From Bacteroidaceae bacterium (GTDB lineage: Bacteria; Bacteroidota; Bacteroidia; Bacteroidales; Bacteroidaceae), in the NCBI GenBank assembly GCA_017617335.1, contig JAFZWK010000040.1:1-64000 (forward strand): 64,000 nt of DNA, written 5' to 3'. The translations under genes were made by a program, and so were the position numbers. Position 1 is the first letter of the stretch. Every line of letters begins with the position of its first letter. The notes under the pieces were generated by a model. That model ran no database searches, had not been told where the DNA came from, and saw only the letters and a list, made by a program, of their open reading frames with translations. Positions 5,624-59,603 of this stretch are shown here, in pieces.

Positions 5624-5731
5624 ACAACGTGTCGTGATTGCAAAGACAACACGTTGAAACCACGAACACAACGTGTTGAAATCGCAAAGACAACGTGTTG
5701 ATTTTCTCCTTTCAACGTGTTGTCTTTTTTT
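5624..5731. repeat. CAACGTGTTG intergenic array 1
   Basis: Five copies or near-copies of CAACGTGTTG, mostly in plus orientation (one is CAACACGTTG), with short spacers such as GCAAAGA. The array begins immediately after the stop codon of the 5194 gene. The remaining bases to 5968 are purine-rich and hold no gene that I can support. Confidence 0.85.
5686..5731 (+). terminator. Terminator formed by two repeat copies
   Basis: AAAGACAACGTGTTGA (5686-5701) pairs with TCAACGTGTTGTCTTT (5712-5727) when the two central G.U wobbles are allowed, giving a 16-bp RNA stem with a 10-base loop that runs into a T tract to 5731. Confidence 0.7.
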
Positions 5732-5968
5732 CCTTGTCATCCTGCAATTTGTTTGATGTGGAAAAGGACGTATGTGTGAGAATAGGTGATGGGAAGGACA
5801 AGATGGTTTGATATCAGCAGAAAGAAAGGGGAGATGGGAATCTGAGGAGACATGGTTTTTCTATCAACAAGCTCTGAAGAGGGAGGAAAAAGGGGGGGGA
5901 CAAAGATAAAATTATCCTCTTGTCATGATTTTATGTTACAAAAAGAAAGGAGAAAAGAAAATAATGTG

Positions 5969-5976
5969 TAACTTTG
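5969..5976 (+). promoter_or_regulatory. -7 box for the RND efflux operon
   Basis: TAACTTTG about 40 bases before the membrane-fusion-protein gene. No clear -33 element is seen. Confidence 0.55.
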
Positions 5977-6016
5977 TACCAATAAAGACTCTCTTTTAGA
6001 TTACAATTCAAGAAAA

Positions 6017-7102
6017 ATGAAGCGATACGTGTTCGTAGGGCTGCTATGCCTTCTTTCTATAACTTCCTGCAAGGAGAAGACGCAAGAGAAAACTGTGCCA
6101 GTATACAAGAAAATGACAGTTGAGCTCTCTAATCAAACGCTGGAGACTGCCTACAGTGCCACCATGACTGGAAAGGAGATTGTGGAGGTTCGGCCTCAGG
6201 TGAGCGGACTTATCACGAAAATACTGATCAAAGAGGGCGACAAGGTGAGGAAGGGACAACCGCTTTTCGTTATCGACCAGGTTCCCTATCAGGCAGCTCT
6301 CAACACGGCAGAGGCAGCCCTGGAATCTGCCAAGGCAACGGAGGCGACGGCACAACTGAACTACGACAGCCGCAAGCAACTGAGGGACCAGCAGGTGATC
6401 AGCGACTTCGACCTGCAAACTGCTTATCAGAGTTTGGTTTCAGCGAAAGCAAGAGTGTCAGAGGCTCGCGCACAACTGACGAATGCTCGAAACAGCTTGG
6501 GCTATACGGTAGTGAAGAGTCCTCTGACGGGCGTGGCAGGCATGATTCCTTATCATGTAGGTGCCTTGGTGAGCAGCAGCATAACGGATCCGTTGGTTAG
6601 GGTAAGTGACGACAAGGAAATGCTCGTCTACTTCAGCTTGAGTGAAAGGGAGATAACAGACCTGACGATGGCAAACGGCTCGATGGACAATTACTTGAAT
6701 CAGATGCCAAGTGTGAGGCTGAAGATGACGAACGGAACGGAATATGAGTATGAGGGAAAGGTGGATGCTGTGAGTGGTTTGGTAGACGAGAGTACAGGAG
6801 CGGTAAGCCTGAGGGCAACTTTCCCCAATCCACAGCACTTGCTTCGCAATGGGGGAAGTGCTACGGTAATCCTTAGAAGCAAACGAGACAGCGTGATCGT
6901 GATACCCCAATCGGCCACTCTGGAGCTGCAGAACAAGGTCTTTGTGTATCGCATCGTAGACGGCAAGGCGAAGATAACGTCCGTGGAGGTGAACAGGTTG
7001 AACAACGGCACGGAATACGTGGTGGAGAGTGGTTTGAGACCTGGCGAGGTAATCGTTGCCGAGGGCGCAGGATTGGTGCGCGACGGGGAGGAAGTGAGAT
7101 GA
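6017..7102 (+). CDS. RND efflux periplasmic adaptor (membrane fusion) lipoprotein
   Basis: A 361-residue AcrA/MexA-type adaptor that links an inner-membrane RND pump to an outer-membrane channel. Lipobox at residues 14-18 (SITSC, Cys18) followed by a barrel-sandwich/lipoyl half (about 55-90, QVSGLITKILIKEGDKVRKG), an alpha-helical hairpin (about 95-160), the second lipoyl half (SPLTGVAGMIPYHVGALV), a beta-barrel and a membrane-proximal domain. Its stop overlaps the start of the pump gene by 4 bases (ATGA), so the two are translationally coupled. Confidence 0.93.
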   Translation: MKRYVFVGLLCLLSITSCKEKTQEKTVPVYKKMTVELSNQTLETAYSATMTGKEIVEVRPQVSGLITKILIKEGDKVRKGQPLFVIDQVPYQAALNTAEAALESAKATEATAQLNYDSRKQLRDQQVISDFDLQTAYQSLVSAKARVSEARAQLTNARNSLGYTVVKSPLTGVAGMIPYHVGALVSSSITDPLVRVSDDKEMLVYFSLSEREITDLTMANGSMDNYLNQMPSVRLKMTNGTEYEYEGKVDAVSGLVDESTGAVSLRATFPNPQHLLRNGGSATVILRSKRDSVIVIPQSATLELQNKVFVYRIVDGKAKITSVEVNRLNNGTEYVVESGLRPGEVIVAEGAGLVRDGEEVR

Positions 7103-10100
7103 ACGTAAAAGCCTTCATAGACAGACCCATTCTGGCTGGCGTAATAAGTGTCTTCATCCTTATTCTGGGATTAATAGGCCTGAGTCAGCTCTCTGTGGAG
7201 CAATTCCCAGAGATCGCTCCTCCCACTGTGCGCGTAAATGCCAACTATACAGGAGCCAATGCGGAGACGGTGATGAAGAGTGTCATCGTGCCGCTGGAGG
7301 AGAGCCTTAACGGTGTGGAGAACATGATGTACATGAGCTCGACAGCCACGAATGCAGGAAACGCCAGCATCGCCCTCTTCTTCAAGCAGGGAACGGATGC
7401 CGATATGGCGATGGTGAATGTGCAGAACCGTGTGGCGAGTGCCCAGGGCCTGTTGCCTGCCGATGTGACTCGAAGCGGAGTGACAGTCAGAAAACGTCAG
7501 ACCTCGAACATTAAGAGCATCTCTCTTTATAGCCCTGAAGACCTCTACGATGACAACTTCCTGACGAACTACATGAAGATCAATATCGAACCTGTTCTCT
7601 CGCGTGTGCCAGGCGTGGGAGAAGTGGGTATCTGGGGTGCCAGCTACAGCATGCGTATCTGGCTGGATCCCCTGAAGATGGCTTCCTACGGATTGGAACC
7701 CTCGGACATTGATGCCGTGCTGAGCGAGCAGAATGTGGAATCGCCTACAGGAACTTTGGGTGCCGAATCAGACAATACGTTCCAGTATGTGCTGAAATAT
7801 CGTGGAAGATACGAGGAAGAAAAGGACTACGAGAACATGGTGATAGCCTCTCGTCCTGATGGCACGATGCTGCGGCTGAAGGATGTGGCTCGAGTGGAAC
7901 TGGGCAAGCAGGGTTATGCGATGCAGAACACCACCAACGGACATGCTGGCACAAACTGCATGATAGCGCAAACACCAGGATCGAACGCCAACGAGATCAT
8001 CGAACGTGTGGATGCCAGTCTGGAAGAGATACGTAAGACATTGCCTCCTGGAATGGAAATCGTGGACGTGATGAATACGAAGCACTTTCTCGACGCCAGC
8101 ATTCACAACGTGGTTCGCACGCTGATGGAAGCCGTTCTACTGGTCATCCTGGTAGTGTATGTCTTCCTGCAGAACCTGCGCAGCACCTTCATCCCTTTGG
8201 TGGCTATTGTGGTCTCGCTGGTGGGAACCTTTGGTTGCCTCTATGCGATAGGATTCAGCTTGAACCTGCTGACGCTCTTTGCGCTGGTGCTAGTCATCGG
8301 AACGGTGGTGGATGATGCCATCGTTGTGGTGGAAGCTGTGCAGGCGAAGTTTGACGTGGGGTACAAGTCGCCCTATCTCGCCTCTGTGGATGCTATGAAG
8401 GGATTGACCTCGGCACTGGTGACGACCACCATCGTTTTCATGAGTGTCTTCATCCCTGTCTGCTTCGTGGGTGGAACGACAGGAGTCTTCTATACCCAAT
8501 TCGGATTGACGATGGCCATCGCTGTAGGGATCAGCACCATTAATGCGTTGACTTTGAGCCCTGCTCTCTGTGCTGTCATCCTACGTCCTCACGACATGAA
8601 GGGGAAAGGGTTCTCAAGCCGTTTCCATGCGGCTTTCGATACTGCATTCGGCAGGATGGTGAGCAAATACCAACGCGGCGTGCTCTGGATATTCCATCGT
8701 AGATGGGTAGCTGGAGTGGGAATAGTGCTTGCAGTTGTCCTGTTGGCTTTCCTGATGAAGAACACTAAGACGGGTTTGGTGCCTAACGAGGATATGGGAC
8801 AGATCAATGTGAACGTGCAGTGTGCTCCAGGTACGAACCTCAACGAGACGGCACGCATTACTCGTGAAGTGGAGGCATGCATCAAGGATATTCCTCAGAT
8901 GCGACTCTACAACATGAGCGTTGGTCGTGGCGCCACTTTCGACCAAAGCAGTAGCAGCGCATCCTTCACCATACGACTGAAGGACTGGAGCGAGAGAAAA
9001 GGGAAAGGAGACGACATTCAGTCTGTCATTGATGATATTTATAAGCGTACAGCCAACGTGTCGAATGCCCAGGTTCGAGTGAGCACCCGTCCCATGATTT
9101 CAGGTTATGGTGCCACGAGTGGATTCGAGATAAACGTGCAGGATCGACGTGGTGGCTCCATCGAAACACTAATGAGCTATACTCGCATCCTGATAGACTC
9201 GCTGAACAAGCGACCAGAAATAGATCGCGCTTACACAACCTTCGATACGAAATATCCGCAGTATCAGGTAGAAGTGGATGCTGCAAAATGTAAACGCGAT
9301 GGCATCTCTCCCACCAATGTGTTGAGTACTCTTTCGGAATACGTGGGTGGACGCTACAGCAGTAACCTGAACCGATTCACCAAGCTCTATCGCGTAATGG
9401 TGCAGGCAAGCCCTGAGTTCCGATTGGATCAGGAGGCGCTGAAGAACATGTACGTGAGAAACGCTGCTGGAGGTATGTCGCCCATCAGTCAATACATGAC
9501 GTTGACCCGTGTGTATGGAAGCGAGAGTCTGAGCCGTTTCAACCTCTTCAGCTGCATCACAGTACGTGGCGAGCATGCATCGGGCTACAGCAGCGGTCAA
9601 GCCTTGCGTGCCATTGAGGAGACGGCAGCCCAAGTGTTGCCAGAGGGATATGGATTCGAGTTTGGCGGCATGTCGCGTGAGGAGGCCAGTTTGGGTAACA
9701 TGACTGCTTTGGTCTTCAGTATTTGCGTCCTCTTTATCTATCTTGTCCTGTGTGCCTTGTACGAGAGTCTGATGATTCCCCTGGCTGTTATTCTAAGCGT
9801 GCCTTTTGGACTGGCAGGAAGTTTCCTTTTTGCCCAGATGTGGGGAGTGGAGAATAACATCTACATGCAGACAGGTCTGATTATGCTGATCGGATTGCTG
9901 AGTAAGACGGCCATCCTGCTGACAGAATATGCCAGTACGCGCCGTCGTCAGGGTATGAGCATCACGATGGCTGCCATGAGTGCGGCACGAGTGCGCCTGC
10001 GTCCCATCCTGATGACTTCACTGACCATGATCTTTGGTATGCTCCCCTTGGTCTTTGCGCATGGAGTGGGAGCTAATGGAAACGTCAGCCTGGGTGTAGG

Positions 10101-10227
10101 TTGCGTGGGCGGTATGATTGTGGGAACCATTGCTCTGCTTTTTGTGGTGCCTGTGCTCTTCATTGTTATGCAATACAGTCAGGAGATTATTCTGAAGAAA
10201 CTGCATATAACATCCTATAAACAATAA
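7099..10227 (+). CDS. RND family multidrug efflux pump, inner-membrane subunit
   Basis: A 1042-residue HAE1-type proton antiporter of the AcrB/MexB class. It has TM1 at the N-terminus, two large periplasmic loops and two sets of helices. The TM4 proton-relay pair is seen as VVDDAIVVVEA (Asp405-Asp406). The length is typical for the family. It overlaps the adaptor gene. No outer-membrane factor (TolC/OprM-like) gene follows; the next gene, 8 bases on, is a GH30 hydrolase. The pump must therefore borrow a channel encoded elsewhere. Substrates cannot be predicted. Confidence 0.95.
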   Translation: MNVKAFIDRPILAGVISVFILILGLIGLSQLSVEQFPEIAPPTVRVNANYTGANAETVMKSVIVPLEESLNGVENMMYMSSTATNAGNASIALFFKQGTDADMAMVNVQNRVASAQGLLPADVTRSGVTVRKRQTSNIKSISLYSPEDLYDDNFLTNYMKINIEPVLSRVPGVGEVGIWGASYSMRIWLDPLKMASYGLEPSDIDAVLSEQNVESPTGTLGAESDNTFQYVLKYRGRYEEEKDYENMVIASRPDGTMLRLKDVARVELGKQGYAMQNTTNGHAGTNCMIAQTPGSNANEIIERVDASLEEIRKTLPPGMEIVDVMNTKHFLDASIHNVVRTLMEAVLLVILVVYVFLQNLRSTFIPLVAIVVSLVGTFGCLYAIGFSLNLLTLFALVLVIGTVVDDAIVVVEAVQAKFDVGYKSPYLASVDAMKGLTSALVTTTIVFMSVFIPVCFVGGTTGVFYTQFGLTMAIAVGISTINALTLSPALCAVILRPHDMKGKGFSSRFHAAFDTAFGRMVSKYQRGVLWIFHRRWVAGVGIVLAVVLLAFLMKNTKTGLVPNEDMGQINVNVQCAPGTNLNETARITREVEACIKDIPQMRLYNMSVGRGATFDQSSSSASFTIRLKDWSERKGKGDDIQSVIDDIYKRTANVSNAQVRVSTRPMISGYGATSGFEINVQDRRGGSIETLMSYTRILIDSLNKRPEIDRAYTTFDTKYPQYQVEVDAAKCKRDGISPTNVLSTLSEYVGGRYSSNLNRFTKLYRVMVQASPEFRLDQEALKNMYVRNAAGGMSPISQYMTLTRVYGSESLSRFNLFSCITVRGEHASGYSSGQALRAIEETAAQVLPEGYGFEFGGMSREEASLGNMTALVFSICVLFIYLVLCALYESLMIPLAVILSVPFGLAGSFLFAQMWGVENNIYMQTGLIMLIGLLSKTAILLTEYASTRRRQGMSITMAAMSAARVRLRPILMTSLTMIFGMLPLVFAHGVGANGNVSLGVGCVGGMIVGTIALLFVVPVLFIVMQYSQEIILKKLHITSYKQ

Positions 10228-10235
10228 ACTATGCC

Positions 10236-11624
10236 ATGAAAAGAATCTTCCTGTTGATGGTGATGCTTGCAAGCATCGATCTGTACGCAGAAACTTATAC
10301 CATCGATGTGAAACAGCGCTATCAGACCAACGAGGGATGGGGCGTAAGCCTGTGCTGGTGGGCCAATATGTGTGGCCGCTGGAACGACGAACGGGTCTCT
10401 GAACTGGTGGACTGGCTGGTATCGCCTGAAGGACTCAATTACAACATCTTCCGCTACAATATCGGAGGAGGTGATGATCCCAACAATGGGCACTGCTTGC
10501 CTCACCACATGGGGAAAGGTAAGGGACTGAGGGCTGAGATGGAAGGATTCAAGGACGGACCAGACGAACCCTATGACTGGGAAGCTGATGAGGCTCAACG
10601 GCGTATCATGCTGATGATAAAGGAGAAGCGACCTGATGCCATCTTCGAGGCTTTTTCCAACTCAGCTCCCTGGTGGATGACCATCAGCGGATGCGTGGGA
10701 GGAAACACCCCTGCTACAGCCGATAACCTTCGCCCAGACTGCTACGAGGCTTTCGCCCACTATCTGGTGGACGTCTGCAAGCATTACAAGGAGACATACG
10801 GAATAGAATTCGTCTCGTTGGAACCTTTCAACGAACCAGTGACGGATTATTGGTATGCGAATGGAAGTCAAGAAGGTTGCCATTTTGGAGCGGAGGCTCA
10901 GACAGACTTCGTGAGGATTTTAGCTCCCATTCTAAAGGAGAGCGGCCTGAATACTATTATATCAGCCAGCGACGAAACAAATGTAGAGACATCCATCCAG
11001 AGTTTGAAAGTCTATCGTGATAAGGGCGTGTTACCCCTTATCGGACGTTGGAACACGCACACTTATAGCGGCAGCATTGAGGCAAAGAAGGAACTGCAGC
11101 AGTTGACCTCGGAGTTGGGTATCAAGTTTTGGCAGAGCGAAACAGGAAGTGGGGGACGAGGCATTCATGGCAACCTGATGATGGCTCAGCGGTTGATGGA
11201 CGATATCCGCTATATGAAACCTACAGCCTGGGTGGATTGGCAATACGTGGAGGAGAAAAATAATCAGTGGTCGCTGGTAAGCACTGACCATGAGTGGCAT
11301 ACCTACCAACGTCACCATAACTATTACATCCGACAGATGTTCAGCCGCTTCATTCCTATGGGATATACGTTTGTGGAGAGTGGATCTGAGCATACGCTGG
11401 CAGCCATATCGCCTGACAACAAGACGCTGGTGCTGGTGGCGCTGAATACTTCAGACCAACCAGAAACACACCTCGCGCTGACTCCCAAGTTGAAGGCTGT
11501 GACTTGCTATCGCACTTCACGAGAAGAGGATGTGGTTCCCATAACGGATTTTGATAAGAAGAAAGGGAAATTGATGTTCCAACTTCCTCCTTTGAGTATA
11601 GCAACGTTTGTCTGTGCTCTGTAG
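10236..11624 (+). CDS. Secreted glycoside hydrolase family 30
   Basis: A 462-residue protein with a short signal peptide (cleavage near LYA-ETYT). GH30 features: NSAPWWMTISG (substrate-binding loop), acid/base Glu200 in EPFNEP, and nucleophile Glu302 in WQSETG, then a C-terminal beta domain that ends in SIATFVCAL. The QEGCHF stretch after the acid/base resembles the endo-beta-1,6-galactanase group (GH30_5), but the specificity call is tentative. It starts 8 bases after the RND pump gene, so it is apparently co-transcribed with an efflux system, an odd pairing. Confidence 0.88.
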   Translation: MKRIFLLMVMLASIDLYAETYTIDVKQRYQTNEGWGVSLCWWANMCGRWNDERVSELVDWLVSPEGLNYNIFRYNIGGGDDPNNGHCLPHHMGKGKGLRAEMEGFKDGPDEPYDWEADEAQRRIMLMIKEKRPDAIFEAFSNSAPWWMTISGCVGGNTPATADNLRPDCYEAFAHYLVDVCKHYKETYGIEFVSLEPFNEPVTDYWYANGSQEGCHFGAEAQTDFVRILAPILKESGLNTIISASDETNVETSIQSLKVYRDKGVLPLIGRWNTHTYSGSIEAKKELQQLTSELGIKFWQSETGSGGRGIHGNLMMAQRLMDDIRYMKPTAWVDWQYVEEKNNQWSLVSTDHEWHTYQRHHNYYIRQMFSRFIPMGYTFVESGSEHTLAAISPDNKTLVLVALNTSDQPETHLALTPKLKAVTCYRTSREEDVVPITDFDKKKGKLMFQLPPLSIATFVCAL

Positions 11625-11683
11625 TTCCTGGCCAAAAGTGCGAAAAAAGATTCCTTCATGCTTCTTTTTTCACTCTTTTTCAT

Positions 11684-11691
11684 TATCTTTG
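11684..11691 (+). promoter_or_regulatory. -7 box for the POT transporter gene
   Basis: TATCTTTG, 57 bases before the start codon; the upstream region is T-rich without a clear TTTG. Confidence 0.55.
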
Positions 11692-11748
11692 TGGCAAATT
11701 TCTTAATTAAAGTCGATAAGGTCAATTAATCATTAAAAAGAATAGAAA

Positions 11749-13248
11749 ATGTTTGAAGGTCAACCTAAAGGGCTTTGGACCCTGGCTTTTGCCAACACGG
11801 GCGAACGTTTCGGCTACTACACGATGCTGGCCGTCTTCGCTCTGTTTCTGGGGGAGAACTTCGGTTTTTCCGCAGGAACTGCTTCTGAGATTTACACATG
11901 GTTCTTAACTTTGGTTTACTTCCTGCCCCTGATAGGTGGTATGGCAGCTGACCGTTGGGGCTACAGCAAGATGGTGGTGACGGGCATCTTCATTATGTTC
12001 CTGGGATATTTGCTGCTCTCCATACCTCTGGGTGGCAATACGGTTGCTGTGGCTGCAATGGGTGGCGCTCTGCTGCTCGTCAGTTTTGGTACAGGTCTTT
12101 TTAAGGGAAACCTCCAAGTCATGGTGGGTGACCTCTACAATGATCCACAGTATGCCCAGAAGCGTGATGCTGGCTTCTCCCTCTTCTATATGCTTATCAA
12201 TGTGGGTGCCCTCTTTGCTCCCACTGCTGCCATCAAGATCATGGAATGGGCTCAGAACTCGCTGGGATACTCGAAGGCCGACTCCTATCATTTTGCTTTT
12301 GCTGTGGCTTGTGTCTCTGTGATTGTTTCTATCCTGATTTATTATCTTGGCAGGCCCACTTTCCGTCAGGTACTGACTGTGAAAAAGAAAGATGTCAAAG
12401 CAGAGGAACCCGTTGAGCAGATGAGCAAGGCAGAAACCCGCGAGCGCATCATTTGCCTGTGTCTGGTATTTGCTGTGGTGATCTTCTTCTGGATGGCATT
12501 CCATCAGAATGGACTTACATTGACATGGTTTGCTGATGAGTTCACCGCCACTACTTCCAACGGATTGCAAAGCATGCTCTTCGATGTTACCAATTTGGTG
12601 GCTGTTATCGTCATCGTTTATGCCCTGTTCAGTTTCTTCCAGAGCAAGACCTCGAAAGGAAAAACATGGTCTGCCGTCCTGATAGGTTTCGCTGCGGCTT
12701 ATCTCATTTACCAGTACAACCATCTGTCTGGAAGTGTGAACGTGTCAGCTCCCATCTTCCAACACTTTAACCCCTGCTTCGTGGTGTTACTTACCCCTGT
12801 GAGCATCGCGCTCTTTGGCTGGTTGGCAAAGAAGGGAAAGGAACCCAAAGCACCTGTGAAGATTGGTCTGGGAATGTTGGTGGCTGCTGCTGCATACTTG
12901 TTGATGACGTTCTTCTCCTTCGGTTTGCCTGCAACGGATCATCCTAACCACGTTGCCGACGTATCGCCTAATCTGTTGGTGAGCACCTATCTGATTCTGA
13001 CTTTTGCAGAGTTGCTGCTGAGCCCCATTGGTATCTCCTTTGTTACCAAGGTGGCTCCTCCCAAATACAAGGGCATGATGATGGGTGGCTGGTTTGTCGC
13101 AACTGCCCTGGGTAACAAACTTGTTTCCATTCCTGGCCACATGTGGGATTTGCCTCTTTATGTCGTATGGGGAACTCTCATGGCAATCTGTTTGCTGGCC
13201 GCTCTCTTCATCTTCTCTATCATTAAGAAGTTGAATAAAGTGGCTTAA
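11749..13248 (+). CDS. POT/PTR family proton-coupled peptide transporter
   Basis: A 499-residue inner-membrane MFS protein that imports di- and tripeptides with protons. The POT signature ExxERFxYY is seen as NTGERFGYY (Glu19, Arg20), and FKGNLQVMVGDLY matches the second family motif. About 12-14 hydrophobic segments are present. It is followed after 13 bases by an NhaC-type antiporter gene, so the two probably share a transcript; sodium/proton exchange could support proton-driven uptake, but this link is inference. Confidence 0.92.
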   Translation: MFEGQPKGLWTLAFANTGERFGYYTMLAVFALFLGENFGFSAGTASEIYTWFLTLVYFLPLIGGMAADRWGYSKMVVTGIFIMFLGYLLLSIPLGGNTVAVAAMGGALLLVSFGTGLFKGNLQVMVGDLYNDPQYAQKRDAGFSLFYMLINVGALFAPTAAIKIMEWAQNSLGYSKADSYHFAFAVACVSVIVSILIYYLGRPTFRQVLTVKKKDVKAEEPVEQMSKAETRERIICLCLVFAVVIFFWMAFHQNGLTLTWFADEFTATTSNGLQSMLFDVTNLVAVIVIVYALFSFFQSKTSKGKTWSAVLIGFAAAYLIYQYNHLSGSVNVSAPIFQHFNPCFVVLLTPVSIALFGWLAKKGKEPKAPVKIGLGMLVAAAAYLLMTFFSFGLPATDHPNHVADVSPNLLVSTYLILTFAELLLSPIGISFVTKVAPPKYKGMMMGGWFVATALGNKLVSIPGHMWDLPLYVVWGTLMAICLLAALFIFSIIKKLNKVA

Positions 13249-13261
13249 AATAAAACGACAA

Positions 13262-19015: not shown

Positions 19016-19118
19016 AGCCACTCCGCTTTCAGCAGACTTTCAGGAATCTTTACAAACTCATCCCCCACAAAAGATCCTTAGGGACGCGACACGTTGAAAA
19101 AGAAAAGGCAACGTGTTG
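19016..19118 (-). repeat. 103-base long repeat, copy 1
   Basis: Its reverse complement matches 39526-39628 over 103 bases with a single visible difference. It includes an internal CTGAAAG direct repeat and ends in one CAACGTGTTG copy of the adjacent array. Confidence 0.9.
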
Positions 19119-19189
19119 TGTCAGCGGTTTCAACACGTTAACTTAACCGATTCAACACGTCGAAATCCGAGATTCAACACGTCGTGTCC
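19086..19189 (-). repeat. CAACGTGTTG intergenic array 2
   Basis: Five copies or near-copies; four read as CAACACGTT or CAACACGTCG on the plus strand, so the motif is mostly in minus orientation, and one (19109-19118) is opposite. It lies downstream of the minus-strand operon that ends at 19258, so the main orientation again matches the upstream gene. Confidence 0.85.
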
Positions 19190-30018: not shown

Positions 30019-30052
30019 TTGACACGTTGGAAATCCGGAGCCAACACGTTGA
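30019..30052. repeat. CAACGTGTTG intergenic array 3 (minimal)
   Basis: Two inverse-orientation copies (GACACGTTGG and CCAACACGTTGA). Unlike the others it lies in the leader of a gene, not after one. Confidence 0.65.
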
Positions 30053-30186
30053 GACATTTACCATTTAACTATCTACCATTTACCATTTTTGGGTGGATGC
30101 AAAACAACAAAAAAAGCCCAAGCGCGCGGGGCGAATGAGAGAGATAAAAGTTTATTAACCAACCAATTAAAAAAAGATTAACAACC

Positions 30187-30664: not shown

Positions 30665-30736
30665 CTAGTAGACCTAGTATGACTAGTATGACTAGTACGA
30701 CTAGTACGACTAGTTGGACTAGGAGAACTAGAAAAC
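30665..30736. repeat. 9-base tandem repeat with a CTAG in each unit
   Basis: Eight units of 9 bases starting with CTAG (consensus CTAGTAYGA, decaying at the right end); a ninth CTAG overlaps the stop codon of the HU-like gene at 30654-30657. CTAG is usually rare in bacterial DNA. Confidence 0.9.
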
Positions 30737-39479: not shown

Positions 39480-39559
39480 CACAACGTGATGAGTCGGCAA
39501 AGACAACGTGTTGAAACAGCAAAGTCAACACGTTGCCTTTCCTTTTTCAACGTGTCGCG
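39480..39559. repeat. CAACGTGTTG intergenic array 4
   Basis: Mixed-orientation copies between the converging 3' ends of the GH76 and second GH92 genes, with the spacer GAAACAGCAAAG also seen inverted in array 6. Confidence 0.8.
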
Positions 39560-49360: not shown

Positions 49361-49413
49361 CAAAAACTTTTCAAAAGCAGGTTTTTTTTAGGCAAAAAGT
49401 TGAGTCGAAGGAC

Positions 49414-49490
49414 TTGACACGTTGATTTGATCATTCCAACGTGTTGTGTCCGCAGATTTAACGTGTCGTATTTTTGATTTCGACACGTTG
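49414..49490. repeat. CAACGTGTTG intergenic array 5
   Basis: Four copies or near-copies in mixed orientation, between the end of the minus-strand tRNA unit and the FAS1 promoter. The rest of the gap to 49656 holds no gene I can support. Confidence 0.75.
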
Positions 49491-49691: not shown

Positions 49692-49698
49692 TCTCGGG

Positions 49699-49772
49699 CG
49701 CTTCAGGATGGGCTTGAACCAACGACCCCATGATTAACAGTCATGTGCTCTAACCAACTGAGCTACTGAAGC
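49699..49772 (-). tRNA. tRNA-Asn (GTT), copy 2 in transcription order
   Basis: A 74-base cloverleaf on the minus strand: acceptor GCTTCAG pairs with CTGAAGC, D arm TAGCTCAGTTGG, anticodon loop CTGTTAA with anticodon GTT, T arm with GGTTCAAGCC, discriminator G; CCA is not encoded. Identical to the copy at 49803-49876. Confidence 0.96.
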
Positions 49773-49802
49773 AAGGGTTGCATTTGAGTTTCCAAAACTT
49801 GG

Positions 49803-49876
49803 CGCTTCAGGATGGGCTTGAACCAACGACCCCATGATTAACAGTCATGTGCTCTAACCAACTGAGCTACTGAAGC
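49803..49876 (-). tRNA. tRNA-Asn (GTT), copy 1 in transcription order
   Basis: Identical 74-base tRNA-Asn sequence 104 bases upstream of the other copy, with the same elements. Both are served by the promoter at 49921-49928 and end at the hairpin at 49657-49691. Confidence 0.96.
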
Positions 49877-50963: not shown

Positions 50964-50967
50964 AGAG

Positions 50968-52605: not shown

Positions 52606-52629
52606 GATGAAACAAAGGAGGATTCTGCT

Positions 52630-52755
52630 ATGAGAAGAAGGAGAGATATACGCAAGTCAAACATGACTTTTATGTATGCTGTAGTTGGTATGGCTATCGT
52701 CGTTTTGATGGTTGTAGGGCTGTTTTGGTACATGTGTATGCCAGCAAAACCATAA
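52630..52755 (+). CDS. 41-residue single-pass membrane peptide
   Basis: ATG at 52630 and TAA at 52753-52755. The Arg-rich N-terminus (MRRRRDIRKSN) is followed by one membrane helix (about residues 14-36) and MPAKP at the end, which gives an inside-positive N-in topology. An AAAGGAGGA sequence 7 bases before the ATG is an unusually good Shine-Dalgarno for Bacteroidetes. It lies 24 bases after the S41 gene in the same direction, so it may be a small regulator or partner of the protease. No family is recognised. Confidence 0.6.
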   Translation: MRRRRDIRKSNMTFMYAVVGMAIVVLMVVGLFWYMCMPAKP

Positions 52756-52793
52756 AAAACAAAGAAAAATAAGCAAAAAAGGTAGAAAAATGA

Positions 52794-52822
52794 TTGGGAA
52801 TCAGATTTTTTTTCTACCTTTG
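52794..52822 (+). promoter_or_regulatory. Bacteroidetes promoter for the rimP-nusA-infB operon
   Basis: TTG at 52794-52796, 18-base spacer, TACCTTTG at 52815-52822, 70 bases before rimP. Confidence 0.65.
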
Positions 52823-52891
52823 CACGCGGAAAGATTAGAGTGAGGGGCTATCAAGTTCCTCACTTTTCTTTATAAACAATAAAAAAGTCAA

Positions 52892-53359
52892 ATGGTAGAC
52901 AAGAAAGCAGTACGCAAAGCTGTAGATGAATGGCTGGAAGGGAAAGATTATTTCCTGATAGACTTGAGTGTTGGTACCGACAATCGTGTCGTAGTTGTTA
53001 TTGATCATGCCGACGGAGTGTGGATTGAGGATTGTGCGGATCTGAGTCGCTACATCGAGTCCCAGATCAGCCGTGAGGACGAAGACTATGAGTTGGAGGT
53101 GGGTAGCGCTGGTTTGGGTCAACCTTTCCAGGTGCATCGCCAATATGAAATCCATGTGGGCCAACCCGTGGAGACTCTGACGAAAGAAGGCAAGAAATAC
53201 AAGGGCACGCTGGTTTCTGTCGATGAGACAGGATTTGAAGTGAACGTGCTGCAGAAGGTGAAGGAAGAGGGCAAGAAACGTCCTGTCACCAAGGAGGTTA
53301 CCTATCGATTCACGTTCGAAGAGGTGGCTTACACCAAATACTTGATAAAAATCAAATAA
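52892..53359 (+). CDS. rimP: Ribosome maturation factor RimP
   Basis: A 155-residue cytoplasmic protein needed for 30S subunit maturation. N-terminal alpha/beta domain (ADLSRYIESQI, then YELEVGSAGLGQPF) and C-terminal SH3-like beta-barrel (KYKGTLVSVDETGFEV, ends LIKIK). Usual length, and the rimP-nusA-infB order is conserved in most bacteria. The gap to nusA is 8 bases. Confidence 0.93.
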   Translation: MVDKKAVRKAVDEWLEGKDYFLIDLSVGTDNRVVVVIDHADGVWIEDCADLSRYIESQISREDEDYELEVGSAGLGQPFQVHRQYEIHVGQPVETLTKEGKKYKGTLVSVDETGFEVNVLQKVKEEGKKRPVTKEVTYRFTFEEVAYTKYLIKIK

Positions 53360-53367
53360 AAAATATA

Positions 53368-54624
53368 ATGGCAAAGAAAGCAGTAGAAAGTGTAAACTTG
53401 ATTGAGTCTTTTGCAGACTTTCAAGACAACAAGCACATTGGACGCGCCACGTTGGTGAGCGTTTTGGAAGAGTGCTTCCGTAACGTGATTGCTAAGACTT
53501 ATGGAAGCGATGAGAATTTTGACGTGATTGTGAACCCTGATAAGGGTGACTTCGAAATCTATCGCAATCGTACTGTCGTTCCTGATGGCGAGGTGCAGGA
53601 TCCCAACAAGGAAATCTCTCTCTCTGAGGCTCAGAAGGTAGAAGATGATTTTGAGGTAGGTGATGAGGTGAGTCAGTTGCTGAAGTTCTCAGATTTTGGA
53701 CGTCGTACCATCTTGACCCTGCGTCAGACATTAGCAAGCCGTATCCTGGAGTTGGAGCATGACACACTCTACAACAAGTATAAGGATCGTATAGGTGAGG
53801 TGGTAAGTGCTGAGGTCTATCAGTCTTGGAAGCGTGAGACTCTTTTGCTCGACGATGATGGCAATGAGTTGATATTGCCTCGCACCGAACAGATTCCTGG
53901 TGATTATTTCCACAAGGGCGAGAACACACGTGCCGTGATTGAGCGTGTGGACAATGCCAATGGAAATCCAAAGATTATCTTAAGCCGCACGTCTCCCAAA
54001 TTCCTGCAACGTCTGCTGGAAGCTGAGGTGCCTGAGATCCAGGATGGTCTGATAACCATACACAAGGTGGCTCGTATTCCTGGCGAGCGTGCCAAGATTT
54101 CTGTTGAGAGTTACGATGAGCGCATTGACCCTGTAGGAGCATGCGTAGGTGTGAAAGGTAGTCGTGTACACGGAATAGTACGTGAGCTGCATGGTGAGAA
54201 CATCGATGTGATCAACTGGACCGGCAATATTCAGTTGATGATTACTCGTGCTTTGAGTCCAGCTCGTGTAAATAGTGTTGTTTTGGATGCAGAGAACCGT
54301 AAGGCAGAGGTCTATCTTGATCCTGATCAAGTATCTCTGGCTATTGGTAAGGGTGGTTTGAACATCAAGTTGGCAAGTATGTTGACCGAGTATACAATCG
54401 ACGTGTTCCGCGAGGTTGATGAAGTTAATGAGGATGACGTGAGCCTGGATGAGTTTACCGATGATATCGAGCCTTGGATCGTAGATCAGTTGAAGAGTAT
54501 CGGCCTGAATACTGCTCGTGAAGTTCTTGAGGTTCCTCGTGATGAGTTGGTACAGCGTGCTGACCTCGAGGAAGAAACGGTGGACGATGTTCTGAATATT
54601 TTGAGGGCAGAATTTGAGGATTAA
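53368..54624 (+). CDS. nusA: Transcription termination/antitermination factor NusA
   Basis: A 418-residue protein that binds RNA polymerase and nascent RNA. N-terminal polymerase-binding domain (about 1-130), S1 domain (about 135-200), two KH domains (about 205-345, with GVKGSRVHGIVRELHGENID and GKGGLNIKLAS). After these there is a single short acidic C-terminal helical repeat instead of the two of E. coli NusA (495 residues), as usual for Bacteroidetes. In operon with rimP and infB. Confidence 0.95.
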   Translation: MAKKAVESVNLIESFADFQDNKHIGRATLVSVLEECFRNVIAKTYGSDENFDVIVNPDKGDFEIYRNRTVVPDGEVQDPNKEISLSEAQKVEDDFEVGDEVSQLLKFSDFGRRTILTLRQTLASRILELEHDTLYNKYKDRIGEVVSAEVYQSWKRETLLLDDDGNELILPRTEQIPGDYFHKGENTRAVIERVDNANGNPKIILSRTSPKFLQRLLEAEVPEIQDGLITIHKVARIPGERAKISVESYDERIDPVGACVGVKGSRVHGIVRELHGENIDVINWTGNIQLMITRALSPARVNSVVLDAENRKAEVYLDPDQVSLAIGKGGLNIKLASMLTEYTIDVFREVDEVNEDDVSLDEFTDDIEPWIVDQLKSIGLNTAREVLEVPRDELVQRADLEEETVDDVLNILRAEFED

Positions 54625-54642
54625 AAACAGAGGAGGGTTTCA

Positions 54643-57495
54643 ATGAGTATTAGACTAAGTAAAGTTACCAAAGAATGCAACGTGGGGTTACAGACCGCCG
54701 TTGAATTCCTGAACAAGAAGGGATTCGGCGATATAGAGATGAACCCCAACACAAAGATAAGCGATGAACAATATGACTTGCTTTTGAAGGAGTTCAAGTC
54801 AGATAAGGGTCTTCGCTCTGAAGCGACCCAACTGATTCAGAAGCGTCAGGAGCATAAGGAGAAGAAGGATACCCATCGTCAGCCTCGTCCTGTGGAGGAG
54901 GTGGAAACCAAGGCTCCCCAGATGGAAGGTCCCAAGATCTTGGGTAAGATAGATTTGGGTGGACAGAAGTCTGCACCTAAGCCTGAGAAGAAAGAAGTGG
55001 CTTCTGCGGAGAAGCCTGCACCTAAGGTTGAAGAAAAGCCCGCACCTACTCCCAAACCAGAGAAGAAGAAAGAAACTCCTGCTCCCAAGGCTGAGCCTAA
55101 GGTCAAAGAGGTAACGCCAGAACCTAAGAAAGAGCCAGAAGTCGCTTCTCAACCTGAACAGGTGGAAGAAGTGCTTGTTGAAACAACCTCAATCGAAGAA
55201 CCAGAGCAGAAGGAAGACATCTTCCGTCTGAACACGCCCCAACCTGCTCCTGGCCTGACGGTAAAGGGTAAGATTGATTTAGACAGCTTGAACCAAAGCA
55301 CTCGTCCCAAGAAGAAGACTCGCGAGGAAAAGCGTCGCGAACGCGAAGAAAAGAATCATTCTCACAATAATCAGGCAAATGCTGGGAACAGCAATCAGCA
55401 AGGTCAGGGTCAAAGTGACCGTAAGAAGAGGGTTCGTCTAGGTAAGGAGCGTGTAGATGTCAATGCAGTTGCTAATCAACAACAGGGAGGTCAGCGTCAC
55501 CAGAACAACCAGAACCAGCAACAGCAGGGTGGAGGAAAGAAGAACCGCAAGAACCAGCCTAAGCAATCCATTCTGCAGCCAGAGGTTAGCGACGAGGAAG
55601 TTGCAAGACAGGTACGTGAGACGTTGGCTCGCTTGACCAATAAGAACTCCAAGATGGGCAAGGGTGCCAAGTATCGTCGCGAGAAGCGTGATGCTGTGCG
55701 TCAAGGCATTCAGGAGGAGATGCAGCAGGAAGCAGCTGAAAGCAAAGTGTTGAAACTGACGGAATTTGTGACTGCCAACGAGTTGGCAATCATGATGAAT
55801 GTGCCAGTCACTCAAGTAATTGCAACCTGTATGAGCATCGGCATCATGGTCAGCATCAATCAGCGCATGGATGCTGAGACAATCAATCTGGTGGCTGAGG
55901 AGTTCGGATTCAAGACGGAATACGTTAGTGCCGAGGTCAGCGAGGCTGTCCATGAAGTGGAGGATGACGAAGAAGACTTGGTGGCACGTGCTCCCATTGT
56001 GACTGTGATGGGTCATGTGGATCATGGTAAGACGTCGCTCCTCGACTATATCCGTCAGACCAACGTGATTGCCGGCGAGGCTGGTGGTATCACGCAACAC
56101 ATCGGAGCCTATAACGTGAAGTTGGAGGACGGTCGTCACGTCACGTTCCTGGATACGCCTGGTCACGAGGCATTTACCGCCATGCGTGCCCGTGGTGCCC
56201 AGGTGACCGATATCGCCATCATCATTATTGCTGCCGACGACGACATCATGCCCCAGACGAAGGAGGCAATCGCTCATGCCCAGGCAGCGAATGTACCTAT
56301 CGTGTTTGCCATCAACAAGATTGATAAGCCAGGAGCCAATCCTGACAAGATCAAGGAGGGCTTGGCTAACATGAACCTCTTGGTTGAGGAGTGGGGTGGC
56401 AAGTACCAGAGTCAGGACATTAGTGCCAAGAAGGGGATTGGCGTGCAGGAACTGCTGGAAAAGGTTCTTCTGGAGGCTGAGATGCTTGACTTGAAGGCTA
56501 ATCCCAACCGCAAGGGAACAGGTTCCATCATCGAATCCAGTTTGGACAAGGGTCGTGGCTATGTGGCTACTGTGCTTGTAAGCAATGGAACCTTGCGAGT
56601 GGGCGACATCATGCTGGCTGGAACCAACTACGGACGTGTGAAGGCTATGCTCAACGAGCGTGGTCAGCGCATACAGCAGATTGGTCCTGCCGAGGCTGCT
56701 ACGGTGCTCGGTCTGAATGGTGCTCCCCAGGCTGGCGACACTTTCCATGTGATGGAGAGTGACCAGGAAGCACGAGAGATTGCCAGCAAGCGTGAGCAGC
56801 TGGCGCGTGAGCAGGGCCTTCGCACCATGAAGCGCTTCGATCTCAACGAGTTGGGTCGTCGTATCGCTCTGGGTGACTTCAAGGAGCTGAACCTTCTTGT
56901 CAAGGGTGATGTGGATGGCTCCATCGAGGCCTTGGGTGACTCTTTGATCAAGCTTTCTACCGAGAAGATTCAGGTGAACGTGATATACAAGGCTGTGGGA
57001 CAGATCAGCGAGAGCGATGTCAACATGGCTGCTGCTGCCGAGAACTGTTTCATCGTAGGTTTCCAGGTGCGTCCCTCTGCTGCCGCCCGCAAGCTGGCTG
57101 AGCAGATGGGCGTGGACATCCGCCTCTATAGTGTCATCTATGATGCTATCGAGGAAGTGAAGGATGCTATGGAAGGCATGTTGTCTCCAGAGATCAAGGA
57201 AGAGGTTACCGGTCAGCTGGAGGTTCGTCAGGTATATCATATCAGCAAGGTGGGCACCGTTGCTGGAGCCTACGTTATGGAAGGCAAGGTGCAGCGGTCC
57301 AACAAGGTACGTGTCATCCGCGATGGTATTGTTGTTTTCACAGGTGCCATCAATGCCTTGAAGAGATTCAAGGATGACGTGAAGGAGGTAACCACCAACT
57401 TTGAGTGTGGTATCTCGCTGATGAGCTACAACGACTTGCGTGCAGGCGACATCCTCGAGGCATACCAGGAAATCGAGATAAAGGCCAAGCTGTAG
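54643..57495 (+). CDS. infB: Translation initiation factor IF-2
   Basis: A 950-residue GTPase that brings initiator tRNA to the 30S subunit. N-terminal IF2_N helical piece (1-60), then a long low-complexity Lys/Pro/Glu and later Gln/Asn-rich linker (about 80-330), a second IF2_N-like segment (about 370-430), and the G domain: G1 GHVDHGKTS from residue 457, G3 DTPGHEAF, G4 NKID. EF-Tu-like domain II, IF-2 domain III and the C-terminal domain follow. The length of the linker is typical of the phylum. Confidence 0.97.
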
Positions 57496-57504
57496 GCAGG
57501 ATAT

Positions 57505-57984
57505 ATGTTGGTATTGGATTGGATACTGCTGGCTTTGCTGGCATTTGGTGCAATCAAGGGTTGGCGCAAGGGATTTGTCAAGCAAATCATCTCCCTTGTT
57601 GCTTTCTTTGTGGGCTTGCTTGTGGCAAAGGCCTTCTATGCAATGTTGGGCGGAATCTTGTCGCCTTACCTGAATGATCATGCCACCATAGCGAATATCG
57701 TGGCCTTTATCCTGATATGGATAGCGGTGCCTGGCTGCTTGGCTCTCTTTGGGGAGATGGTCAGCACCGTTCTCGACAAACTCTTTGTGCTGGGTACGCT
57801 GAACAGTTTCTTTGGCGCGTTGGTTGGACTTCTCAAATACGAGCTCATTCTGGGAGCCTTCATTTGGGTATTCAGCCTGACGCAGATTCTCAGTCCCGCC
57901 ACAATGGAGGAATCCGTCCTGTGCAAACCTTTGAAGACTGTCGCTGAAACAGTCTATTCCATCTTGATTGGCTCTGAAGATTAG
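57505..57984 (+). CDS. CvpA family membrane protein
   Basis: A 159-residue inner-membrane protein with four hydrophobic segments (about 3-28, 33-55, 63-85 and 100-130), with GAIKGWRKGFVKQIISLVAF and GTLNSFFGALVGLLKYELIL as CvpA/colicin-V-production-family positions. It lies 9 bases after infB and 6 before sufB. The cellular function of the family is poorly defined; a role in envelope integrity is reported for other species. Confidence 0.82.
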   Translation: MLVLDWILLALLAFGAIKGWRKGFVKQIISLVAFFVGLLVAKAFYAMLGGILSPYLNDHATIANIVAFILIWIAVPGCLALFGEMVSTVLDKLFVLGTLNSFFGALVGLLKYELILGAFIWVFSLTQILSPATMEESVLCKPLKTVAETVYSILIGSED

Positions 57985-57990
57985 GTGTAA

Positions 57991-59433
57991 ATGGAGGAGA
58001 AGAACAGCTTTGTACGCGAGGTAGCCGAGAAGAAATATGAATACGGCTTCGTTACCGATGTACAGACAGACATCATCGAGAAGGGACTCTCGGAGGAGGT
58101 TGTTCGTCTGATTTCCAGCAAGAAAGGGGAACCTGACTGGCTGCTCGACTTCCGCCTGAAGGCTTTCCGCTATTGGCAGACGCTGGAGCAACCCACTTGG
58201 GGGCATCTGAAAATGCCACCGATAGACTATCAGGACATCTCCTATTACGCAGATCCGACTGTCAAGAAGGGGAATGACAAGAAGGAGATTGACCCTGAAC
58301 TGATAAAGACCTTCGACAAGCTGGGAATCCCTTTGGAGGAGCGTATGGCGCTGGCAGGGACGGCTGTAGATGCCGTGATGGATTCGGTAAGTGTGAAGAC
58401 CACCTTTCGCGAGAAGCTCCAGGAGGCAGGCATCATTTTCTGCTCCATCTCAGAGGCTGTCAGAGAGCATCCTGACTTGGTGCGCGAGTATCTGGGCAGC
58501 GTGGTCCCCTACAAAGACAATTTCTTTGCAGCCCTCAATAGCGCCGTCTTCTCCGATGGATCCTTCGTTTATATTCCCAAGGGCGTGCGTTGCCCTATGG
58601 AACTCAGCACCTATTTCCGTATCAATGCCCGTGGTACAGGCCAGTTCGAGCGCACGTTGATTGTGTGCGACGACAATGCTTACGTCAGCTACCTGGAGGG
58701 TTGCACGGCTCCCATGCGCGATGAGAATCAGTTGCATGCAGCCATTGTGGAGATTGTGGTGAAGGAAAATGCCGAAGTCAAGTACAGCACCGTGCAGAAC
58801 TGGTATCCTGGCGACGCCGAGGGGAAGGGCGGTGTGCTGAATCTGGTCACCAAGAGAGGGCATCTGCGTGGAGCCAATAGCCGATTGAGTTGGACTCAGG
58901 TGGAGACAGGAAGTGCCATTACGTGGAAATACCCCAGTTGTATCCTTTCAGGCGACGGAAGTCAAGCTGAATTCTACAGCGTAGCGGTAACCAACAACTA
59001 TCAGCAGGCCGACACAGGAACCAAGATGATTCATCTTGGCAAGAACACCAAGAGCACCATCATCAGCAAAGGCATCAGCGCAGGCAAGAGCCAGAACAGT
59101 TATCGTGGGTTGGTACGTGTTGCCAGTTCAGCCGATGGAGCACGCAACTACAGCAGTTGCGACTCGCTCCTCTTGGGCAGTTCCTGCGGAGCGCATACCT
59201 TCCCCTATATGGATGTCCGCAACGATACGGCTGTGGTGGAGCACGAAGCCACTACGAGCAAGATTTCCGAGGATCAGCTTTTCTATTGCAACCAGCGGGG
59301 CATCAGCACGGAAGATGCCGTTGGGCTGATTGTGAACGGTTATGCGAAGGATGTTCTTAATAAGTTGCCTATGGAGTTTGCCGTAGAAGCCCAGAAGCTG
59401 TTGGGCGTAAGCTTGGAGGGCAGCATAGGATAG
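57991..59433 (+). CDS. sufB: Fe-S cluster assembly scaffold SufB
   Basis: A 480-residue cytoplasmic protein that builds Fe-S clusters in the SufBC2D complex. It has the central right-handed beta-helix ([32 protein letters not shown]) and conserved C-terminal helical part with [19 protein letters not shown], in which the Cys that takes sulfur is expected. Full length. Unusual: sufB is separated from sufC by 460 bases with a repeat array, terminator hairpin and a new promoter. Confidence 0.96.
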
Positions 59434-59503
59434 GCGGCAGAAAGTCAAGTATCTGGAGTCAAGAGTCAAGGATTTGACAGGTGACCCCATTTCTTGGGAT
59501 AAA

Positions 59504-59545
59504 AAAGACAACGTGTTGAGTCGAGGATTTCAACGTGTTGTCTTT
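59504..59545 (+). terminator. Terminator-like hairpin after sufB
   Basis: AAAGACAACGTGTTGA (59504-59519) pairs with TCAACGTGTTGTCTTT (59530-59545) through 16 positions, two of them G.U, around a 10-base loop; the T run at its end is short (TTT). Confidence 0.6.
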
Positions 59546-59603
59546 GCTGTTTCAACGTGTTGAGTTTGCCTTTTCAACGTGTGACTTTTTTTCTCTCGAC
59601 GTG
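59504..59603 (+). repeat. CAACGTGTTG intergenic array 6, inside the suf cluster
   Basis: Four copies, all in plus orientation, between sufB and sufC. The remaining sequence to 59893 contains ATCGTTGAGA direct repeats (around 59801-59850) and a promoter box; the 68-codon frame at 59639-59845 has no supporting feature. Confidence 0.85.

Follow-up and report, generated by a model that had tools for sequence, protein, structure and literature searches.

DNA uptake sequences are lineage-specific short words that are distributed genome-wide, often behind genes, and occur singly or in pairs rather than in phased arrays, and the parS, matS and Noc sites are dispersed palindromic single sites of chromosome-organising proteins; in REP/BIME elements the units are inverted. 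REP sequences are described as short, near-palindromic intergenic repeats which are present in many copies, mostly behind genes, and carry a GTAG/CGTC tag, with the CGTC repeats apparently lacking a dedicated transposase, and a length of 24–48 bp is given for CRISPR repeats (PMC3733652). BrickBuilt from Porphyromonas gingivalis is described as an intergenic 23-nt minisatellite MITE whose unit number varies among strains, with 19 copies in ATCC 33277, no spacers, a leader and a tail, and IS5-like terminal inverted repeats (PMC4596501). The arrays reported here, from a window of 64 kb (the whole stretch of DNA that was analysed) of a gut-type bacterium, resemble REP/BIME elements in being short, near-palindromic, intergenic, multicopy and mostly located behind genes, but have a fixed tandem period of 22 bp and a consensus unit, GGTTTCAACGTGTTGTSTTTGC in the lineage of the window, that is devoid of GTAG/CGTC; moreover, they keep their place in sister species and change their sequence in other species. 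With BrickBuilt they share the occurrence in Bacteroidales as intergenic tandem repeats of nearly equal unit length and variable unit number. However, those of the window's own lineage possess spacers and show no terminal inverted repeats, leader or tail, and there are 80 of them in half the assembly of the window's own genome. Since several arrays of the genus g30 do have inverted-repeat outer flanks, the absence of MITE-like ends applies to the own lineage only. In contrast to CRISPR, whose spacers are foreign and not repetitive and which neighbours cas genes, the arrays combine a 10-bp core with 12-bp spacers that share a consensus, and occupy 80 separate places in 1.17 Mb. Like DNA uptake sequences they are lineage-specific, dispersed and often behind genes, yet they are phased, and like parS, matS and Noc sites they are dispersed and palindromic, but form 22-bp arrays instead of single sites. 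One variant found in relatives, CTTCACRYGTGAAG, presumably recalls parS in its TTCAC/GTGAA arms, with two centre bases differing. Among the matches listed in a literature search that covered few subscription journals, there was no named family of 22-bp phased intergenic repeats in Bacteroidota, and among those listed for CAACGTGTTG, none was by its title concerned with bacterial intergenic repeats.

The unit consists of the 10-bp core CAACRYGTTG and a 12-bp spacer, repeats with a period of exactly 22 bp, and contains the core in either orientation. Six arrays are located in the window:

Array 1: 5625..5722, five cores at 22-bp steps, orientations +-+++, 3' of a 142-aa open reading frame (5194–5622, + strand)
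Array 2: 19087..19184, five cores at 22-bp steps, orientations -+---, flanked by two minus-strand genes
Array 3: 30020..30051, a pair of cores at a distance of 22 bp, two mismatches in one of them
Array 4: 39482..39557, four cores at 22-bp steps, within a gap between convergent genes
Array 5: 49415..49490, four cores at 22-bp steps, on the 3' side of two tRNA-Asn genes of the minus strand
Array 6: 59509..59584, four cores at 22-bp steps, between sufB (57991–59433) and a sufC-like gene (from 59861)

Array 3 is the weakest of the six and is detected by a relaxed finder only, while array 5 is accompanied by a degenerate fifth core at 49393 and array 6 is followed by another at 59597. The gene next to array 6 was identified by tblastn matches annotated as sufB, and the names of serC, serA, sufC and a methyltransferase-like gene were obtained by reading translations. 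A preliminary description had located the motif at six places; it is present at all of them, with coordinates that are correct within a few bases, and the arrays were rightly recognised, but their main feature, the exact 22-bp spacing of the cores, was overlooked. Core matches with at most one mismatch number 39 in the window, compared with 3.8 expected from shuffled sequence, and none of 100 shuffles reached 39.

The window arrays are part of a large family, with 80 arrays, mostly of 3–5 units with a near-palindromic core and a variable spacer, in 1.17 Mb of the same genome; contigs and stretches had been picked for having listed arrays, so that densities are biased upward. In 816 kb of this genome, 55 arrays were found at period 22 and none at periods 17–21 and 23–26, and the 28 and 66 arrays that the same finder returned for periods 33 and 44 arise because these are multiples of 22 and the finder may skip one step. 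A lag scan of intergenic sequence (lags 15–40) revealed 67 places at lag 22 and 0–3 at the others, of which 2 places at lag 22 are left when the CAACRYGTTG arrays are removed; a stricter first scan, run with no low-complexity filter, yielded 45 versus 0–2 for genome G000 and 7 versus 0–3 for the relative G099. The same period appears in other Bacteroidales, with 10 places at lag 22 versus 0–1 elsewhere both in G099 and for the loci of 28 genus relatives, and 18 versus 0–2 in Prevotella sp. oral taxon 299. Some of the sampled species have few arrays, such as Phocaeicola with two places each at lags 22 and 21, or none, such as G104 in 80 kb; the lag scan gave no lag-22 arrays in 150 kb of E. coli K-12. 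What varies is the core: among 139 genus genomes, period-22 arrays were built on CTTCACRYGTGAAG (at most two mismatches) in 17 and on GGCRYGCC in 23, and in the sampled Bacteroidales such core dialects are common to species groups and sometimes mixed within one genome. In G099 the cores differ between places, and both the CTTCAC and the GGC dialects are present in G084 and G087.

This 22-letter rhythm, written with different letters in relatives, suggests that a putative protein reads the arrays. We tentatively favour, as the best and still doubtful explanation, arrays of dyads spaced by two helical turns for a cooperatively binding protein. The elements would act as double-stranded DNA, with dyad-like units that follow one another in tandem at a distance of two helical turns, in many cases behind genes; a putative DNA-binding protein would recognise the half-site and bind cooperatively along one face of the helix, once every two turns, and arrays thus occupied may mark or constrain the chromosome, roughly every 12 kb in the window's own genome. 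Renewal would be local and would proceed through duplication of units, conversion and inversion of cores instead of transposition, which would allow the array set to drift to another dialect together with the protein. The evidence for such a protein, namely the period, the conserved arms, the dialects and the spacing, is indirect, and the mixed cores in G099, G084 and G087 are hard to reconcile with a single protein of uniform specificity. The scarcity or absence of arrays in some sampled species is a further point against this explanation. Complementarity between the two flanks of a core is below chance expectation (z −4 to −7 for the three core-adjacent bases, 409 cores), and the unit is therefore directional. 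Should a protein read the arrays, such a genome would probably carry more than 100 predicted binding sites, and the dialects would provide a natural test case for the co-evolution of a DNA-binding specificity with its whole site set. Prevotella-like bacteria are major members of the rumen and of many human gut communities; to our knowledge, little is known of gene-end marking and chromosome folding in them. It is a bolder and rather unlikely proposition that Bacteroidales (Prevotella, Bacteroides, Phocaeicola) in general possess two-turn dyad arrays with fast-evolving putative readers, lineage dialects and mixed states where the reader changes. If true, this would establish an interspersed repeat of a new type, whose geometry is fixed while its sequence can vary freely, and which would help to insulate domains or gene ends.

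The distribution of the arrays along the chromosome is more even than random placement in matched gaps for G000 (CV 0.54 vs 0.82, P=0.0005) and G015 (CV 0.59 vs 0.98, P=0.001), whose arrays are partly the same loci, and the relaxed finder gave a CV of 0.61 for both (P=0.005 and P=0.0015, respectively). No even spacing was found in oral taxon 299 (CV 0.99 vs 0.90, P=0.71). A regular spacing of ~10 kb was rejected, since mutual avoidance within 4–6 kb suffices and the regularity was not seen in oral taxon 299; deletion between repeats could explain such avoidance.

The main rival to a protein-read array, which we regard as unlikely but a serious contender, is a self-maintaining minisatellite devoid of host function, whose units would arise through slippage or repair templated by hairpins, would be kept uniform inside an array, and would persist only behind genes, where they do little harm. 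Comparison with sister species provides evidence on both sides. Unit number shifts by whole 22-bp steps (7 versus 4 units at one of the places), and one array and its counterpart differ in all three spacers at once; in 38 aligned orthologous cores (ten named loci of other organisms being set aside), the AC/GT centre was switched in 10 with no single-step intermediate. All of this would fit a minisatellite, as would an array that was duplicated along with the neighbouring gene tail and the cores of G099 that vary by place, and the scarcity of arrays in divergent gaps of 50–300 bp is also expected from harm to promoters. On the other hand, slippage should yield many periods and 22 dominates in several species, nearly all 22-bp arrays of the window's own genome share one core sequence, and the arms are nearly invariant while the spacers turn over: 4 of 304 arm positions differ in the 38 cores, a figure that is somewhat flattered because admission was limited to gap-free alignments in which the first CA was present or no more than three arm positions differed. 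The comparison shows that core arms are conserved and that spacers and centre change fast. Even as a minisatellite, a repeat of fixed length and free sequence would be unusual, and could mislead callers of terminators, small RNAs and CRISPR.

Alternatively, the arrays might be RNA elements at gene 3' ends, that is, terminators or hairpins protecting against decay, whose near-palindromic unit would let them work on either strand. We consider this improbable. The preference for gene 3' ends noted in the preliminary description is real: 42 of 56 arrays in tandem gaps are closer to the upstream stop codon (p=0.0002), and among gaps of 50–300 bp arrays are present in 27/100 of the convergent, 29/264 of the tandem and 3/120 of the divergent ones. 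In gaps above 300 bp (4/22, 24/87 and 9/40, respectively) the contrast is gone, perhaps because genes in them escaped the caller; gene calls came from a simple script, so that distances are approximate, as are the 9 of 119 arrays inside gene calls and the 9 at their edges (18/119 in all). The assignment of the pairing strand to the strand of the upstream gene failed, in contrast, with 26 sense and 25 antisense tandem arrays and 5 ties in the larger stretches, after 33 versus 26 (p=0.43) in a first set of 118 arrays and a weak correlation of array orientation with the local gene strand in G000 (rho 0.35, p=0.01). Hence, of the outcomes that had been named in advance as speaking against terminators or RNA-stabilising elements, a lack of strand bias was found and a lack of gene-end enrichment was not.

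The pairing chemistry of the RNA copies had been described correctly, and some folds are indeed strong, but one strand is not consistently better across the six arrays. Array 1 forms a stem of 18 bp (z −4.7 on the plus and −1.9 on the minus strand) and, like other single arrays, does resemble a terminator; in arrays 2 and 5 the two strands are about equal (z −3.5 to −4.2), the better fold of array 4 is on the strand opposite to most of its CAACGTGTTG copies (z −3.7 vs −2.0), array 6 is weak on both strands (z −1.5 and −0.5), and array 3 gave no fold signal. Averaged over 64 arrays, the fold z amounts to −2.59 on the sense and −2.67 on the antisense strand, and relative to shuffles it is about −2.6 in tandem and −3.5 in convergent gaps on both strands. 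Folds below shuffles on both strands, the location behind stop codons and A-rich or T-rich array ends would all suit RNA elements, yet runs of at least four T were not enriched on the transcript 3' side (24/64 vs 27/64 on the other side), and hairpins followed by a U-tract show no preference for the strand on which the upstream gene is transcribed. Ordinary terminator-like sites are about equally frequent in gaps with arrays (13/56 and 10/47) and without (24/100 and 39/179), increasing to 20/56 and 16/47 when the arrays are counted too, and those that arrays add in tandem gaps are 6 sense and 5 antisense. With no U-tract or fold asymmetry, and ordinary terminators not being replaced, the proposal of 3'-end terminators was not borne out.

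Compensatory changes are likewise few: among 711 cores of 177 arrays, one arm was changed in 170, both with pairing kept in 7 and both with pairing lost in 22. Strand-specific RNA pairing was thus rejected as a general rule, as was a nested hairpin across the whole array, whose outer flanks display no covariation. There was no Rfam family match at the arrays, the gathering scores being reached in the window by two tRNAs only. Relatives behave differently from the own lineage, where flanks are less complementary than chance: at their C-RY-G sites, arm complementarity at distances 1–7 is 0.36–0.49 within arrays versus 0.22–0.27 elsewhere (16 of 21 arrays, hand-picked, with the CACG motif chosen after viewing the arrays), and GGCRYGCC spacer ends pair above chance at 3 of 7 pairs (z 4.9, 4.1 and 2.6). 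A hairpin model also predicts both of these features. A coarse palindrome test of the relatives' consensus units gave a mean p of 0.44 (21 arrays). Against RNA elements stand, finally, the fixed 22-bp step, which would play no part in them, and the arrays that lie between sufB and sufC and between serC and serA; in Bacteroides finegoldii, sufB and sufC are 20 bp apart.

A transposed REP- or MITE-like repeat with its transposase encoded elsewhere is very improbable: it would account for paired cores at hundreds of intergenic places in few related genomes (none or one in most others) and for the inverted-repeat outer flanks in g30, but the arrays carry no GTAG/CGTC tag, share no ends in the own lineage, and are present in both genomes at 12 of the 13 comparable gene pairs where at least one genome has an array, the sole exception being a replacement of ~300 bp and not a clean insertion. 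Y1_Tnp, the RAYT domain, was detected in none of the 8 genomes with CAACRYGTTG arrays (two of them only 62% and 67% complete) and in 8 of 12 other genomes, and a RAYT-driven REP was rejected on this ground. The idea of an autonomous element lying between two arrays that are close to each other was also dismissed, no transposase being recognised in translations of the C37 and C31 pairs, and so was carriage by phages or plasmids: exact CAACRYGTTG pairs occurred at one two-unit place in viral contigs, and a plasmid search with array 1 returned none. Gaps between serC and serA that carry no array differ in their sequence. In the own lineage, the 24 bases bordering the arrays (274 flanks of 137 arrays, with eight named loci of other organisms set aside) are A-rich before the first core and T-rich after the last, and contain a weak ghost core, and otherwise exhibit no shared sequence, leader, tail or terminal inverted repeat.

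As regards orientation along the replicating strands, array orientation did not follow GC skew (rho 0.21, p=0.13).

All six intergenic places of the preliminary description indeed carry the motif, and they share a property absent from that description: successive cores, in either orientation, are separated by 12-bp spacers, so that the core-to-core step is exactly 22 bp. In 816 kb of the genome under study (G000), 55 arrays have period 22 and none has a period of 17–21 or 23–26, the 28 and 66 arrays counted at periods 33 and 44 being due to multiples of 22 and a finder that was allowed to skip one step. Over the entire assembly (2.37 Mb in 73 contigs; completeness 62%), core pairs 22 bp apart with at most two mismatches yielded 149 forward and 146 reverse matches (some places on both), and the reversed-pattern control yielded 0. 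For this lineage, 137 distinct arrays were analysed, including two from further MAGs (loci L040 and L086); 70 comprise four units, 28 three and 25 five (range 2–10). The centre of the core CAACRYGTTG is AC in 275, GT in 261, palindromic in 8 and other in 7 of 551 cores. The unit (consensus GGTTT-CAACGTGTTG-TSTTTGC) is directional, with a variable yet patterned spacer: an AAA-type flank lies to the left of 126, to the right of 49 and on both sides of 3 of 273 inner cores read in + sense. Just outside the arrays the left flank is rich in A and the right flank in T, with a weak ghost core one step beyond the array ends.

A sequence-blind scan of intergenic DNA at lags 15–40 extends the period beyond this motif. 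Lag 22 was found at 67 places in G000 (other lags 0–3), 29 in the sister species G015 (0–2), one in G071 (0), 10 in 200 kb of the relative G099 (0–1), and 10 in the serC-region loci of 28 other genus members (0–1), at least four of these apparently being one orthologous place; the scan found none in G104. Further counts were 18 in 400 kb of Prevotella sp. oral taxon 299 (other lags 0–2; shuffled 0.2), three in 100 kb of Bacteroides finegoldii (one place at lag 18), two in 150 kb of Phocaeicola massiliensis (two at lag 21, one at lag 24), none in 150 kb of E. coli K-12, and, in stretches of another genus (g30) picked for arrays, 12 at lag 22 and nine at lag 21. The units differ: the whole G099 genome holds one exact CAACRYGTTG pair and its cores vary from place to place, while dialects are common to groups of species, G084 and G087 each having two. 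At period 22, CTTCACRYGTGAAG (at most two mismatches) occurs in 17 of 139 genus genomes (1–24 places each; reversed control 0) and GGCRYGCC in 23 (1–73 places each; reversed control in 8); AAAGCANTG is present in 13 of the 18 oral taxon 299 arrays vs 6% of control pieces. CACG or its complement, a motif chosen after inspection, is found in 16 of 21 relatives' arrays vs 29% of control pieces (p=1e-5), and in 16 arrays of that set arm pairing around such C-RY-G sites is 0.36–0.49 at distances 1–7 vs 0.22–0.27 for non-array sites; a coarser palindrome test on the relatives' arrays was negative. Hence, the geometry is common across lineages and the letters are local. The g30 loci L164–L171 also hold a separate intergenic repeat class of period 21, GGAGAAGGGAAAAA-like among others.

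The exact CAACGTGTTG pair is confined to three of the 139 genus genomes (G000 and its sisters G015 and G122), and CAACRYGTTG pairs to 11 of 399 genomes of the family sample, two of them with one place each. Seven of the 11 belong to g30; most g30 arrays that were read have a GC core centre, those of G167 having AC/GT, and inverted repeats flank several arrays on the outside. At gene pairs conserved between G000 and its sisters, arrays are present in both for 12, in the sister only for one and in neither for 143, certain loci being counted against more than one sister; a smaller count gave eight shared, one in G000 only and one in a sister only. Locus L035 has an array at the supposedly G000-only place, which makes that case an artefact of gene calling. 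In one orthologous pair all three spacers have changed together, and another has seven units vs four. When 38 orthologous cores were aligned, their arms showed 4 differences in 304 positions, and the centre has switched between AC and GT in 10 (e.g., L119:13162 vs L074), with no single-step intermediate among the 38. All eight flanking bases are identical in two of the 10 (one G000 core vs two sisters) and seven of eight in two more; one additional switch with unchanged flanks lies outside this set. The pattern resembles what inverting the core centre would leave, e.g., via strand switching at the palindrome; selection against intermediates may alternatively explain their lack. On G000 contig C37 (L145:7803-8264 and 9324-10630), a duplicated segment contains an array and the tail of a gene whose translation is RNA-methyltransferase-like, and an unrelated ORF separates the two copies.

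The preference for gene 3' ends proposed initially was borne out. Stretches totalling 1.75 Mb of the three genomes hold 119 arrays, 101 of which could be placed relative to genes called by a simple script (nine 'inside' and nine at edges were set aside); in tandem gaps the upstream stop codon is the nearer gene end for 42 of 56 arrays (p=0.0002; median 72 bp from the stop vs 184 bp to the next start). With array length subtracted, arrays are present in 27/100 convergent gaps of 50–300 bp, compared with 29/264 tandem and 3/120 divergent gaps in that size class; the orientation contrast is absent above 300 bp (4/22, 24/87 and 9/40), where gaps may hide missed genes. The gap between sufB and a sufC-like gene contains array 6; in B. 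finegoldii, sufB and sufC belong to a single gene run and are separated by 20 bp. Another array sits between serC and serA. Near array 5 lies the following feature:

49696–49876, minus strand: two adjacent tRNA-Asn(GTT) genes, scored equally by Rfam and situated 5' of array 5 when read on their own strand.

Period, place, conservation pattern, lack of strand preference and dialects are direct observations; on this basis it is possible, and we suggest tentatively, that a putative protein binds the array unit in cooperative fashion, with two turns between sites. The arrays are also evenly spaced, in line with this reading (CV 0.54 vs 0.82 simulated, P=0.0005, in G000; 0.59 vs 0.98, P=0.001, in G015). 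The evenness is explained by arrays avoiding one another within 4–6 kb; it persists more weakly under a relaxed finder, and the oral taxon 299 arrays did not show it. A bolder and rather unlikely extension would have fast-evolving putative DNA-binding proteins read two-turn arrays, in dialects, in Bacteroidales such as Prevotella, Bacteroides and Phocaeicola. The main rival, a somewhat doubtful self-maintaining minisatellite tolerated behind genes, would account for the concerted spacer change and the core inversion, but leaves the dominance of 22 bp across unrelated units unexplained. Cores of more than one kind within a genome are harder to reconcile with one reader protein, which gives this rival more weight at the expense of both binding readings.

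Strand-specific RNA pairing and a terminator role, both proposed initially, found no support as general rules: the pairing strand of tandem arrays is sense in 26, antisense in 25 and tied in 5, and T-runs occur on the transcript's 3' side in 24 of 64 cases vs 27 of 64 on the far side. Fold z-scores over the set of arrays are equal for both strands; single arrays do fold well. Non-array terminator-like sites are found at 13/56 convergent flanks with arrays vs 24/100 without and at 10/47 vs 39/179 tandem flanks; counting arrays too gives 20/56 and 16/47, arrays in tandem gaps contributing five antisense and six sense sites. Among 711 cores of 177 arrays, changes affect one arm in 170, both arms with pairing kept in 7 and both with pairing lost in 22, and complementarity of core-flanking bases and spacer ends is below chance. 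These results speak against a general RNA-hairpin or terminator reading in this lineage. In the GGCRYGCC dialect of other species, by contrast, three of the seven spacer-end pairs tested show more pairing than expected by chance (z 4.9, 4.1 and 2.6; 67 spacers). Mobility driven by a REP-associated transposase (RAYT) is unlikely: Y1_Tnp was detected in none of the eight genomes that have the CAACRYGTTG core and in 8 of 12 others.

Among the closest known systems are REP elements, whose tag and RAYT, defining features according to PMC3733652, were not detected here, and BrickBuilt, a 23-nt MITE of P. gingivalis, whose leader, tail and TIR (PMC4596501) were likewise not detected around the arrays of this lineage. 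Among the papers listed by full-text literature searches, none names such a 22-bp array family, and we file the arrays as a variant within the dispersed intergenic repeats.

Other repeats were seen as well. In the serC-serA gap (L186–L213), many genus relatives without CAACRYGTTG have, as judged by eye, period-7 repeats (GTTGACA, GTTCATA, GTTTACT, CCATTGA). G000 has further dispersed short tandem families, CATTTAC (7 bp), CTAGTATGA (9 bp), TGTTACTG (8 bp) and AAGCCTACATA (11 bp), at 30055–30088 and 30665–30731 of the window and on several contigs, some as inverted pairs ∼50–250 bp apart. Finally, NC_022111.1 (L280; 1.77 Mb) of oral taxon 299, labelled a plasmid, contains a sufB match and is therefore probably a chromosome.
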